Source: Daedaleopsis sinensis (taxonomy: Eukaryota > Basidiomycota > Agaricomycetes > Polyporales > Polyporaceae). From it: 64,000 nucleotides of DNA. Shown one piece after another: positions 15,205-23,800 of the stretch. A program made the position numbers and the translations under genes. Positions within the stretch are counted from its first letter, which is position 1; every line of letters starts with the position of its first letter. Under the pieces are notes generated by a model. That model was not told the origin of the DNA. It did no database searches and saw only the letters and a list, made by a program, of their open reading frames with translations. Location: NCBI GenBank assembly GCA_033807695.1, contig CM066307.1, forward strand, positions 992,001 through 1,056,000. The letters are read 5' to 3'.

Positions 15205-16727
15205 ATGGCTGCACACAAAAATCTTATCCGCCTCCAAGCGGCAAAGCAGGAGTACGACTGGGGCAGGCACGGCTCGTCCTCCCTCGCTGCCCGCCTGGCT
15301 CCCAACGCCATCGGCCATGGCTTCCAAATAGACGAGAGCAAGTCATACGCCGAGGTGAGTGCTGCGAGCTCTGCGCTCTGCCACTGACCGGTGACCGAGC
15401 AAGCCAAGATATGGATGGGCACCCATCCGAACGGCCCCGCCAATCTATACGACTCCCCGTCGACATCTCTCCTCTCCCTCATCGCCTCCGATCCCTCGCA
15501 TTACCTCGGAGAGACCCTCTGCCGCAAATGGCCCGCGACGACCCACATCCCCTACCTCTTCAAAGTGCTCTCGATCGAGAAGGCCCTCCCCCTCCAAGCC
15601 CACCCGGACAAGGGCCTCGCAGAGCAGCTCCAGCGCGACGACCCGTCCAACTTCGTCGACTCGAACCACAAGCCCGAGATCGCGGTGGCCATCGGAGAGC
15701 CGCTGTGCGAGACGCGCGCAAAGTATGCGGGTGGTCAGCGCGGGACACCACTGGATCCAGCTCCAGAGCCCGAGGTCGGCGACGCCGACACCGCGTTCGT
15801 CGGCTTCGTCGGCTTCCGGCCCCTGGACGAGATCAAGTCCTTCCTCGAGTCGATCCCCGAGCTCGCAGACGCCATCGGCGACGAGCAGCTTGTCGCGGCC
15901 TTCCTCGCGAGCCCGTCCAGTGATTCGCTGCGACGAGTGTACCGCGCACTGCTCAAGCGTGGCGTCGAGGCGCGCGATTCGGTCTCGCAGGTCATCGATG
16001 GCCTGAAGCTGCGCGCGCTGCGCAACGGGGGCACCCTCGGCTTTCACACCAGGGAGCTCGCGAGCCTCGTCGAGAGGGTGAACGCGCAGTACCCCGGGGA
16101 CGCAGGGGTGCTCGCGACGGTGTTCTTCATGAACTTCGCCAAGCTGAAGAAGGGCGAGGCGATCTACATCGGGGCAGACGAGATACATGCCTACCTCGAG
16201 GGCGGTGCGTCTCGACGTCCCCCGTCGCTCGATGCCGCGGTCCTGACTTGCGCCCCTGCCCAGACATCATCGAGTGCATGGCCGTCTCGGACAACGTCGT
16301 GAACGCAGCCTTCGACGACCCGTCCACCCTCGCGCCTCAGATCGACACCTTCGTCGACATGCTCACTTACACAGCGCGCCCGGTCTCGCACTGGGCTCTG
16401 CCGGCAAAGAGGTACGAGCACGGCCTCCGTGGGTGCTCTATCAAGTACGACCCGCCCATCGAAGAGTTCGTCGTCATCGGCACGTTCCTCAGCAAGAGCA
16501 AGGCAAAGGAGGAGCATCTGGCCGCAGTGGATGGTCCGACCATCGGGATCGTCACGAGAGGCCGCGTACTGATCGCCACCAAGAAGGGCGACACTGCTGA
16601 GCAGCTCGAGTTGGCCGAGGGCGGTGTCGTGTTCGTGGCTCCCGGAAACGAGACGCACATCGAAGTGCTCGAGGGCGACGGTCTGGAAGAAGCAGGCGAA
16701 ATCTGGTGGTCGCTGTTCGGAGCATGA
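15205..16727 (+). CDS. PMI40: mannose-6-phosphate isomerase (phosphomannose isomerase, type I)
   Basis: Three exons (15205-15354, 15409-16204, 16264-16727) join in phase to give 469 residues. The enzyme interconverts fructose-6-phosphate and mannose-6-phosphate in the cytosol, the entry to GDP-mannose for cell wall, N- and O-glycans and GPI anchors. Type I motifs are present: QEYDWGRHG near the N-terminus, LPLQAHPDK and NHKPE with zinc ligands, and YIGADEIHAYLEGDIIE spanning the second intron with the last zinc His. About 30 residues with low similarity to the family (near 15,700-15,790, between EIAVAIG and the GFVGFRP block) form an insertion in the catalytic domain. It stays in frame, and I found no phase-consistent intron there. 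The stop lies 122 bp from the convergent mevalonate kinase stop. Confidence 0.93.
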
Positions 16728-16849: not shown

Positions 16850-19800
16850 TCAGACGAACAACCACTTCCCACGGCCGGATGCCCACTGGGCAAGCTCAGC
16901 AGTGCTGACGCTCTCGAAGCGGTTCCGGATGGACGGCTGCAGGACCAATCCATCCTCGTGCCCGTTCGGCTCAGGGGTGGGCGGCGGGGACAGCGGCGGA
17001 GAGTCGTCGTCCTCGTCGGCCGCGATCTCGTCGTACGGCGAGAGAATGCCGAGGCCCGAACCACCGACCGATGTAACGTAGACTTCAAATTCGGCAGCCT
17101 TCAGCGACGCGATGAGCGACTCCAGCTTGTCTTCCGAGAAATCTAGAAACCGACCATGATGAGTATCACACGATGCACGAGGAGCGATAGACCGTACCAT
17201 CAGGAACGAGTGTCACGGCGCAGCCGCCACCGCCCGCGCCGGTGAGCTTAGTGCTCAGGCGGTAGGGCGCACCGGCGGTCTTCGCGCGGATGACCTCCAG
17301 CGAAGGATGAGACACTCCAAGCCTGGCGAGGTGCACGTGGTTTTCGTCAATGAGAGCCTGCACACACCAACGTCAGCGGGCAGAAACTCGGGCATGCATG
17401 GGGGAACCTACCGAGAGACCACGAAGGAGGAGGTTACGCGGGACCTCGGGATCCGCAAGGGCGCGTCGCGCCTCGTCGCTGATCGTCTGGATGGCGTCGA
17501 GCAGCCTGCCCACGGGCTCGGGCTCCATAACCTTCTTCCTCGCCACCCCCGCGACGAGCGCCTTCGTGTCGCGCGGAATCTTGGAGTCGACGAGCAGGAA
17601 CCGGAGCGACTTGAAGCCCTGGATCTGGTCCATGCCGCTCCGCTTTCCGTACCCGGGACGCACGTACGCGAGCGCGCCGCCAAAGACGGAGACGGAGTTG
17701 TCCACCCCGGACGGGTTTCCGTGGAGCACCTTCTCGGCGATGAACGCCCAGCGGTTGGTCTCCTCCGCGATGGCGGGCGGAAGCGCGCGGCGGCCACCGT
17801 GCGACAAGTGGACGTGGCCGGGGTCGTTGTCTGTCGGCTCACGGGTTGGCGGGGGGACAGAAGGAAGCTCCATGCGTCCGTGGAGGATGAGGAGGGCGGT
17901 GGCGATGCAGACGGAGAAAGATGCCGAGGAACCGAGGCCGGCACCGATGGGGAGCGTGGATCGACATATAAAGTGGAAGGACGGCCTATCACCGCTCGAG
18001 GCCATCGTCATGTACAGGTACAGGAAGGCGACGGCGGCTGCGTGTGACTTTGGTGGCATCTCGGACTCTGGAGGAAGAGCTTTAGACTTGATGGCGTCGA
18101 CCACACGCTGGTCGAGTGTGTCAGGGTGGTCCTGCCCCTTCGGTATCGAGACAACGGCGTCCCACGGAAGCTCGTCAATGTCCCATTCCTGCTTGTAGTC
18201 GCTGATGTCGCTGAAGTGTACAGATATCTTGTTGTCGTATCGGGGCGAGGTGAGCCCGTAGCAACGCAGGTCCACGGAAGCCGCCACCGCCGTCTACAGA
18301 TTACGATAAGGATAACTTCTCCCGTTCGATAATAATGTGGATCACTTACGACACCGTGTACAACCGCATGCTCCCCGAATAGAATCACCTTTCCAGGGGC
18401 ACTGACGAACCACTCGCGGTGTTGCTGAGGACGGGCAGTGCGAGCTTCCCCGAGCGCAAGCTTCTCCACAGCACGGCTGATTGGGTTAGGGATCCTGATA
18501 TAGTCGTTGGCAGCGAAAGTGATTGCACCAGCTTCGACGAGAGCATGGCGGAGATCGTCCAGCAGATCTGCAGGGTCCTCGATACCCACACACAAGCGGA
18601 TGAGATCTTCCGGAAGACCGCGAGCTGCGCGGGTGGCAGGATCAATAGAAGCATGCCTGGGGAGACAAACAAGATGTTTTAGTCACAGCATGATGGGTAC
18701 AGGATTTAGAGGTGACTTACGACATGACGCAAGGCATACTGATCAGACTGTTCACACAGCCAAAGCTCACACTGATTCCCCAGAGTCGAGTGGCCGCGAC
18801 GATACGTTCGCTCAGTTCCTTGTCTCCAGTCTCGAATGAAAGAACGGCTCCATATCCTAGCGCATATATTTGTGAGTCATGATGGACTTGTTAACGGGGG
18901 CTTGTGGAGCATACCGTCAGAGATTCGGTCGTGGATATCCTTGCCCGGATGGTTGGGCAGGCCAGGGTAATGAGTGACAAAGCCGAGCTTAGACATCATC
19001 TGTGCGACGAGCATAGTGGTCGACTGCTGGCGGTCCATGCGGATGGCCAAGGTCTTCGTTCCACGGAGGAGCAAGAACGAGTCGAACGGAGTGAGAGCGT
19101 TGCCTACTGCGTTGATGAAGAACGCAACTTCCTAATAACCACACGCAACCCCTCAGTCGCCCTCTCTTTGCATACGATAAGACGTAACACAGACCTTGGC
19201 CAGGTCGTCGCGGTTGCAGGTAATCACCCCGGCCATCAAGTCGTGGTGGCCGCTGAGGTACTTCGTCGCGCTGTCGTACACGATATCTGCACCGTGCTCC
19301 AGGGGCCGCTGCAGGTACGGACTCATCATCGTGTTGTCGACCACGACCACCGCGTCCTCGCACTTCTCCTTCACCAGCGAGCTGATGCGTGCGATGTCCA
19401 CGATCTTCAGGAGCGGGTTCGTGGGGGTCTCGAGCAGCACCATCGCGGTCTTGCCGGGGTTCAGGTACGGGAGGACCGAGTCCGCCTTCGTCGTGTCGAC
19501 GTGGTGCACGGTCACGCCCATGTGCGCGCGGAGGTAGGTGAGCAGGCGGTTCGTGCCGCCGTACAAGTCGTCCCCGGCGATGACCTCGCACCCAGGCTTC
19601 AGGAGACGGGTGATAACGTCGAGGGCGGCCATGCCGCTCGACACCGCGAACGCATGCGAGGCGGAGGAGATCTTCGCGATGTGGTGCTCTGCCAGATACA
19701 AGTCAGAATCCTGCGACCCACGCCGGTGCACCAGCAAATGTCGGGGGGTGCTGTTCTATCAACGGAAAGGGCTTCGAGCTTCTACAAAGGAATAGAACCA

Positions 19801-20130
19801 CATCTGGGATGCATCACGCAACCCGCACAAGCCCCGAGTGTAACTCTATTCTCAGGCAAGCATCGGGGACACACCTAGGTGGGATCGGGTGGGGTTCCCA
19901 CTCCGAGAGTAGTCATACTGCCCTGCGACGCCCTTGAACGTCGCCGTTTGGTAGATGGGCACGCTCGAGCTCCCATGCTGGTCCTTGTGGTCGGCGTCCG
20001 GGGAGTCGACGGTCGCGCAAAGCGTCGAGAAGCGGTAAGGTTGTCTAGAGCGGGTTAGAGAAGGAGATTCGGGTTCTGGAGTTGGGAGGTCATGGACCGG
20101 CGCTTTGTGAAGGGAGCTAGCCGACGCCAT
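16850..20130 (-). CDS. STR3-ERG12: fused cystathionine beta-lyase / mevalonate kinase
   Basis: Eight exons (20130-19875, 19688-19195, 19131-18915, 18856-18721, 18656-18350, 18293-17412, 17357-17198, 17142-16850) total 2745 nt and give 914 residues without a stop. Residues 1 to about 413 are a PLP-dependent Cys/Met enzyme: YSRSGNPTRSHL, YGGTNRLL, and the lysine motif SATKYLSGHHDLMAG, which favours beta-lyase (cystathionine to homocysteine) over gamma-synthase. Residues from about 448 are a full mevalonate kinase: APGKVILFGEHAVVHG, LPIGAGLGSSASFS, PSGVDNSV and TGAGGGGCAVTL. Exon 5 encodes the end of the lyase, a linker of about 34 residues and the start of the kinase. It has no in-frame ATG before the kinase ATP loop. 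A TCACGTG site lies 146 bp upstream of the start. Confidence 0.88.
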
Positions 20131-20855: not shown

Positions 20856-23800
20856 TCAGGATACTCCTAGTTTTTGGAACATCGAGTCGAGTGTCTTGAA
20901 CGCGACGGGCTTGACGAGACTGGATACCAGACGTGAGACAACGAGAAGACTGTGCTATGCGACAATACTCACTATCCATCAACGCCGGCCTCGAATGCTC
21001 GACGCTTGTCTTCGAGAGAGGACATGCCGGTCAGCGCTAGGATGCGGGCGCTAGGATGTGCTCCTGAGGGATCTTCCTGCCTGCGCTTCCCCTCGATCTG
21101 GCGCATTTGCGCCGTCGCACCCACGCCGTCCAAGATAGGCATCGATAGATCCAAAAGCACGACGCTGGAAGAGGGCTAAGTCAGAAACCACACGCATCCA
21201 GGTAACGCAAAGAGACACCGACTCAAAGTATCCATCCGTCTCGAACGTCTGGACGGCTTCGAGGCCGTCCACGGCCTCGCGGTAGTCATACCCCTACAAG
21301 ACGAGGAGTCAGAACCAGACACCGAGATTACGAAAATGAACGGCGGGAACGCACCGTATTTCGGAGCCACTTCACACTGGACGGAAAACACCGACGATCA
21401 GCGAGCTGGCCAGATATAAAGAGCGGACGGGCACTCACAGCAGGTTCCGCAATATGCTATTGTCCTCCACAACGAGCACCCGCAGCGGTCCCCTGAGATG
21501 GACCGTGCCCACGGACGATCTCAGCAGCGTGCCGCCAGTGCCTATCGCGATTGTCGGGCTAGACGGCATCTGCGCCAACTGGGGCGAGCTAGAGGTCGAG
21601 TCCGACTCCGGCTCGTCCTGTTCCACCGTCGAGGGCATGTGCGACCAACTCCCCAATGGGTGCGCAGTTACCGCCCTCGGGCCCAGCGGCGGCCGCAGGG
21701 AGGATGGCATCTTCACCCTCGCATCCGCCGACCTCTCTTCCGGATACCGCCTCGCTAGAGAGGACAACGCAGGCACATCGTACGATGTCGATCGGGTCGG
21801 GGAGTCCGGCCGTGGGTGGTGGTTCACCGCCGACGGCTCTCCGCGCGTGCTGTTCCCGATGTTCAGGGCGTGCAGCGAGAGTTTGAGGGCGTTTACGAGC
21901 CGGCATGGCCCCACAGGCTTGTACACGATCCTGCAGAAGCCGCCGATATTCTCGTACTCGTTGACAGTCCCCATCAGGCGCGGGTCGCCGCGCGCAGAGG
22001 AGAGGATGATGAACGGCTTGGACGGGTCCTTCCGCTCGATCGCGGCAATGACGGGTGTGGGATCCTCGTTCACAATCACGATGTCCCCGCCGTCGCCGGC
22101 CTCGGCCATGGGGAATTCCCAGTCTGACACGAGGTACTGCAGGAGCACCCTGCGTAGAAGCTGCACGCCGCGCAGATTGTCATCGAACGCGAGCAGGGAC
22201 ACCGTTGGCCGCGCCCCGTGTTCCAAGACCTTAGCTATTTCGGCGGCGAAGGACGATGCTTCACTCGGACTCTCGACTGCCTCGGCGTCGAAAGTGACCT
22301 TGATCTCGGTCCCCACACCCTCTGCGCTCCATACGTCAACCTTGCCGTCGACGCCTGGCGAGCGGACGATGCTATTGACAATGGCGAGGCCCAGTCCCGT
22401 CCCTGACTGCAAGGGGTTCTCTTGAGAAAACGGATGGAAGAGTTGGTTCTAGAGTGACGGGGTCACAACGTGAGCTTGTGCGCATGGGCGGTTCTGGAAC
22501 CGCTCTCACCTTCAAGAAGTGCTGGCTGATGCCCTACAAGGATTCATTAGCACCAACTTCACCGCCAAAACCGCAGCCGTGCATGTGCCCGTACCTTGCC
22601 CGTGTCTACAACCGATAGTTCTATCTTGACCTTGCCCGGCGGCGTTTCGCTTGTCGGAGGCAGCTGTCGCAGCATTACGTGAACATATCCGTTCTGCATT
22701 CAACGAAGGCCGTCAGTACCGTAGTTGCGTCCCTCATGCCCGCCCCCGATCGACTTGACACGTACCGATGTGAACTTGAGGCTGTTTCCGAACACATTCA
22801 TGAGGACACGCCTAATACCGCCCTTCTCGCACCGGAATGTCCATGGCTGAGAGAGAGAGGATAGCGTGAGCACACGACAATCCGCTTCGGGTAGCTAGGA
22901 CGGCACATACAGCCTCGCTATGTCCGATATCGATCACAGTCTCAACGTGTTTGTTCGAGCTCGGGAGCATCAACGACGAGCGATCTTGCTTTGGCGGCGA
23001 GTACACACTACCAATCTCGCTTGTGAACATCCGTGCACGGTGGCCGATCCAACAACCCTCCGTGGCGTCTTCAACGAGCTGCATGATGTTGACCCTGTAA
23101 CGTGCAGGTTCGCGTAAGTACCCGACGGCCCCGCATGCGTCTGACGTTGTGAGAGAGCATCGACTGACCGGCTGAGGCGGATGACATTCTCGACGCCGCC
23201 TGCCTTGGCATTCCCGCTCAATTTCGTGAAGTCTAACACGTGGTTGACGGTCTCTACAAGCGACGTTCCGCACGCCTGGACCGTCTGGAGGAACGATGCC
23301 TGGCTGTGGTTAAGCGACGTCTCTGAGAGCAGCTCCGCGGAAGCGAGAATCTGCACGGTCAACATGAGCAGGTGTGCCGCGCCACAGGAACAAGGGGGCC
23401 ACTTACGCCGTGCAGCGGTGTCCGCAGCTCGTGGGAGATACTTGGGAACGAGTGTCAGCTCATGTCATGTGTGCGCTTCCGTGTGGGGTGCTCACTTGGA
23501 GATGAACAAACTCTTCGCCTTATCCGCCATAATCATTCTCCGTTTGAGGACCGCAGAAAGGATAATGACGCCTATCGACAGTTAACATACCGAATACCTT
23601 GGACAAAACTCGAGAGCTCACCGATAGCACGTAGATACGACAGTTCGTGGCCCTCAAGCTGCGAATGGTGTCCGTGCATTAATTGATTGTCTGCGCTGGC
23701 AGCTTCAATTGGGAGTGACTTACGAATGGCGCCGCCCGTTCACAGGTGCTGTACGCACATAGCAAGGCAAACGGTCGCTTATCGATGTTGTAAATTGGTA

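Follow-up and report, generated by a model that had tools for sequence, protein, structure and literature searches.

The lyase-kinase gene and its surroundings

The window analysed here is a 64,000-nucleotide stretch of Daedaleopsis sinensis DNA. It belongs to contig C8 of an assembly with 24 contigs and a total of 51.6 Mb, whose completeness is not stated. On its minus strand, a gene predicted at 20130-16850 carries the coding sequence of a cystathionine beta-lyase followed by that of a mevalonate kinase. The 8 exons join into 2745 nt, corresponding to 914 codons and a stop codon, without a single internal stop, and all seven introns are of the GT..AG type with lengths of 54-186 nt. The exon count and total length, obtained by re-joining the exons, are identical to those of the initial annotation, which had also placed the joint inside exon 5 (18656-18350), where the lyase end, the linker and the kinase ATP loop are indeed all found. 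The computed mass of the protein is 98.6 kDa, and the gene is made up as follows.

19875..20130, minus strand: exon 1, with the start codon at 20130; N-terminal part of the lyase (residues 1-85), matched by PF01053 from residue 48
19195..19688, minus strand: exon 2, lyase core with the presumed PLP lysine K228 (SATKYLSGH)
18915..19131, minus strand: exon 3, lyase
18721..18856, minus strand: exon 4, lyase; after M363 and M367 no further Met precedes the kinase loop
18350..18656, minus strand: exon 5, the joint, comprising the lyase end (to residue 411), the linker (about residues 412-448) and the kinase ATP loop
APGKVILFGEHAVVHG: kinase ATP loop within exon 5, residues 454-469, including K457
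17412..18293, minus strand: exon 6, kinase core with GLGSS (S593), E657 and D668
17198..17357, minus strand: exon 7, kinase C-terminal domain with KLTGAGGGGCA (residues 801-811)
16850..17142, minus strand: exon 8, kinase end and an acidic/proline-rich tail; the stop codon ends at 16850 and the C-terminus reads ...GKWLFV

The splice choices are backed by homology beyond the open frame, because the lyase profile spans exons 1-5 unbroken and the match to the mevalonate kinase structure 1kvk spans exons 5-8. This support begins at residue 48, and the first 47 residues stand without it.

A phosphomannose isomerase type I gene is present on the plus strand at 15391-16727, with PF20511 and PF20512 matched in 15391-16230; visual inspection suggests that it extends through the frame 15924-16727, so that 122 nt separate its end from the lyase-kinase stop codon, the two genes being convergent neighbours. 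Upstream of the lyase-kinase gene and on the same strand (about 20970-22448, minus), a histidine kinase ATPase domain (HATPase_c) lies in 21438-22448. The frame 20972-21175 (minus) resembles a response-regulator receiver by eye and, together with the HATPase_c frame, perhaps belongs to a hybrid sensor kinase.

The two enzyme halves and their copy number

The N-terminal half is matched by the Cys/Met PLP enzyme domain PF01053 (Pfam) over residues 48-407 with 421.8 bits, covering profile positions 11-380 of 381. In NCBIfam, the joined protein passes the cut-off of TIGR01329, the equivalog model of eukaryotic cystathionine beta-lyase (residues 48-411, 527.2 bits against 487.5). The best solved-structure relative of residues 1-411 is the cystathionine beta-lyase 1ibj (E 3.6e-105), which we take to be the Arabidopsis enzyme, and K228 within SATKYLSGH, presumably the PLP-binding lysine, is aligned with SATKFIAGH of that structure.

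The C-terminal half carries both GHMP kinase domains of Pfam, PF00288 at residues 570-609 (34.9 bits, cut-off 22.3) and PF08544 at residues 761-824 (22.8 bits, cut-off 21), while a weak match to PF10509 at residues 449-486 was set aside (20.6 against a cut-off of 23.1). The mevalonate kinases 1kvk, 2r3v and 8tfo head the 19 structure matches of this half. For residues 412-914 the best of them is 1kvk, presumably the rat enzyme (E 4e-66), and the alignment of residues 451-851 with residues 7-380 of its 395 is nearly full length. K457, S593, E657 and D668 are aligned with K13, S146, E193 and D204 of 1kvk, which we take to be active-site residues of mammalian mevalonate kinase, and all four are kept. 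The mevalonate kinase model TIGR00549 reaches 154.7 bits against a cut-off of 163.05 when the largest genomic stretch is scored alone; when the joined protein is compared with NCBIfam, the best 25 of 49 families are all of the lyase type. In the middle of the kinase, at about residues 609-640 (window about 17784-17879, minus strand), there is a net surplus of 16 residues over 1kvk (102 compared with 86), spread over three alignment gaps.

Since the domains are complete and the catalytic positions are kept, both halves are full length and look active, the former as a PLP-dependent cystathionine beta-lyase and the latter as a GHMP-type mevalonate kinase. A fusion could freeze a domain for structural reasons, leaving one half as a relic in a protein with one activity only, but the full length of both halves, their conserved catalytic positions and the failure to find a replacement for either enzyme in the assembly make this most improbable. 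An SKL-type C-terminal ending serves as a peroxisomal signal. The protein ends in GKWLFV, without an ending of this type, which suggests a cytosolic location.

The assembly itself was searched with PF01053, TIGR01329, TIGR00549, the kinase half and the DNA of exon 5. In these searches exons are scored apart and the best candidates only are scored, and single copy accordingly means that a second copy was not found. No second mevalonate kinase was found in the 51.6 Mb: all three matches of the kinase half are pieces of the gene itself (four candidates were scored), and the three matches of TIGR00549 comprise the lyase-kinase gene together with two low-scoring places, at 38.9 and 22.8 bits, which were rejected as mevalonate kinases with galactokinase and homoserine kinase as their best NCBIfam families. 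TIGR01329 gave 15 matches, 5 of which are pieces of the lyase-kinase gene, and with exons scored apart none reaches the cut-off. The strongest of the other places, C10:2507667-2508830, covers positions 38-382 of 383 with 264.3 bits, far under 487.5, and it was rejected as a second beta-lyase, as cystathionine gamma-lyases top the solved relatives of its 276-residue piece. The remaining nine matches score at most 46 bits, as do the other places of the PLP family, on C4, C6, C11 and C12, with the lyase model. Within the assembly, the search thus revealed no further gene approaching TIGR01329. Exon 5 DNA has one match in the assembly. As a separate observation, two Cys/Met PLP-family stretches on C11 (782331-784171 and 786920-788422) stand in tandem about 2.7 kb apart, and a third is present on the same contig at 734199-735687.

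As no other good copy of the lyase or of the kinase was found in the assembly, this gene most likely supplies both activities in the organism.

The joint between the halves and its possible readings

The linker, as re-drawn here, covers residues 412-448, i.e. about 37 residues or 111 nt inside one exon, with bounds close to the roughly 34 residues (414-447) proposed initially. Its open frame is too weak to serve as proof of a fusion and was rejected as such: when the 111 nt were shuffled with dinucleotides preserved, 1864 of 5000 shuffles were also free of stops (37%), and 1080 of 5000 were free of both stops and Met codons. The codon score of the linker in frame is slightly positive at 0.11 bits per codon (best reverse frame, 0.03), and its codons are less GC-rich at the third position (0.595) than those of either half (0.762 and 0.785). 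Better evidence for the fusion is the lack of space between the lyase end and the ATP loop, as the last conserved helix of the lyase, the linker and the kinase ATP loop are all encoded in exon 5.

On these grounds, together with the features of the two halves, one spliced gene very probably encodes one bifunctional polypeptide of about 99 kDa, with the beta-lyase N-terminal and the mevalonate kinase C-terminal. One competing reading is that of two tandem genes, in which alternative polyadenylation or splicing would end the lyase, and the kinase would be driven by a promoter of its own with a short cryptic first exon. Exon 5 contains no in-frame stop after the lyase. As the initial annotation had stated, there is no contiguous in-frame ATG 5' of the kinase loop; the genomic frame closes upstream at TGA 18685, and no Met residue is encoded between M367 (exon 4) and M549 (exon 6). 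The annotation had gone further and held that the kinase cannot start on its own, which proved too strong. When an ATG followed by one intron of 45-199 nt was allowed under loose splice rules with the kinase motif kept, 23 alternative first-exon paths were obtained, 16 of which add at most 60 residues. Judged by eye, most of these 16 short paths have poor donors or acceptors, and at least two are passable, those using ATG 18654, the donor GTGGGT at 18589 and the CAG acceptors before 18494 and 18476. A stand-alone kinase start was set aside as unsupported rather than impossible.

These alternative first exons weaken the word "cannot" and leave the conclusion of a fusion standing. Because two of them are passable, we rate the tandem-gene reading marginally higher, and the fusion marginally lower, than we would have otherwise. 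The former is still very unlikely, since the halves leave no room between them, with a linker of 111 nt within one exon, and the same fusion has been published in other basidiomycetes, including, in the available text of PMC3720577, a fused lyase-kinase unigene in the mycelium of another species.

It was also considered that a single chain might be a polyprotein, with cleavage in the linker releasing the two enzymes. Such a reading would suit the position of the linker, beyond the lyase model, which ends at residue 411, and ahead of the 1kvk match, which starts at residue 451. Processing goes unmentioned in the available text of the published accounts of the fusion. We regard cleavage as very unlikely too.

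For the bifunctional polypeptide, which would stay uncleaved, the N-terminal half is predicted to have the Str3/MetC activity, converting cystathionine to homocysteine, and the C-terminal half the Erg12 activity, converting mevalonate to 5-phosphomevalonate. With both active sites on a single chain, the direct effect of the fusion would be a fixed 1:1 supply of the two enzymes. The bifunctional enzyme suggested in the initial annotation is thus favoured by the one fused gene, the conserved catalytic positions, the only good copies and the published fusions, with the activities themselves read from the sequence.

Relation to published fusions and biological meaning

The initial annotation had left it as a question whether such a fusion had been described. 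It is already known, having been reported in basidiomycetes in two papers of 2012, PMC3342255 and PMC3468542. According to the available text of PMC3342255, on the Ganoderma lucidum genome, a gene named metC-MVK occurs in 12 basidiomycetes and is absent from Laccaria bicolor; its products average about 886 residues, and in those fungi K00869 has no other homologue and K01760 no other best match. The D. sinensis gene resembles that description in having the same enzymes in the same order, a similar length (914 residues here) and no separate copy found, and from this domain order, length and copy number it is most likely an orthologue of the basidiomycete metC-MVK. In seven of the basidiomycetes, PMC3342255 also describes a conserved insertion of 16 residues; the surplus of 16 residues in the present kinase may or may not be the same.

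The account available from PMC3468542 states that in every basidiomycete examined, Postia placenta excepted, the STR3 orthologue ends in a mevalonate kinase part about 450 residues long, and that, by preliminary analysis, a stand-alone kinase is absent in these basidiomycetes, whereas ascomycetes have two separate and apparently unclustered genes. Set beside these orthologues by description, the present gene is alike in placing the lyase first and the kinase second, with no stand-alone kinase found. The exceptions named in the available text of the two 2012 papers differ (Laccaria bicolor in PMC3342255, Postia placenta in PMC3468542), hinting at errors in gene models. Among Polyporales, GME67_g of Lignosus rhinocerotis is described in the accessible part of PMC4129116 as a fused protein of 918 residues and the sole mevalonate kinase match; the same fusion is seen here, again as the only match to mevalonate kinase, with 914 residues.

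A mevalonate kinase gene is named in the consulted text of papers on Xanthophyllomyces (PMC8420053, PMC4393869), Ustilago (PMC7396576) and Rhodotorula (PMC10835275), and the word cystathionine is absent from the main texts of all four. In the Ustilago paper, as far as its available text goes, mevalonate kinase is the only enzyme of the pathway without a KEGG prediction (PMC7396576).

Another gene fusion of basidiomycetes, described in the accessible text of PMC10051792, joins spermidine synthase to saccharopine reductase, enzymes which are separate in ascomycetes. Similar to the gene studied here, it combines enzymes of different pathways, with the joint within one open exon. The enzymes of that fusion are unrelated to those described here, and mutant work in Cryptococcus is cited for it (PMC10051792), whereas none was met for the present fusion in the literature searched.

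The physiological point of the lyase-kinase fusion has been stated as open since 2012 (PMC3342255, PMC3468542), and its function or reason is left for future study in the available text of PMC3342255, PMC3468542 and PMC3720577. No functional test of the fusion was met in the literature searched, which mostly did not extend to subscription journals. The fusion may link sulphur and isoprenoid metabolism, and one could speculate that it matches the supply of methionine and S-adenosylmethionine to sterol methylation. A further-reaching proposal is that of a fixed regulatory device of basidiomycetes, in which the only lyase is tied to the only kinase, the ratio of methionine/S-adenosylmethionine supply to isoprenoid/sterol flux is set and the active sites regulate each other; we consider this rather unlikely.

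The locus represents one further clean copy of a known fusion, for which the 51.6-Mb assembly was searched for additional copies, and introduces no new principle. Basidiomycetes may share the fusion as a derived character, and PMC3342255, in its available text, proposes that it arose in their common ancestor. If both activities reside in the one protein, one step of sterol synthesis and one step of methionine synthesis would be governed by a single gene in these fungi.
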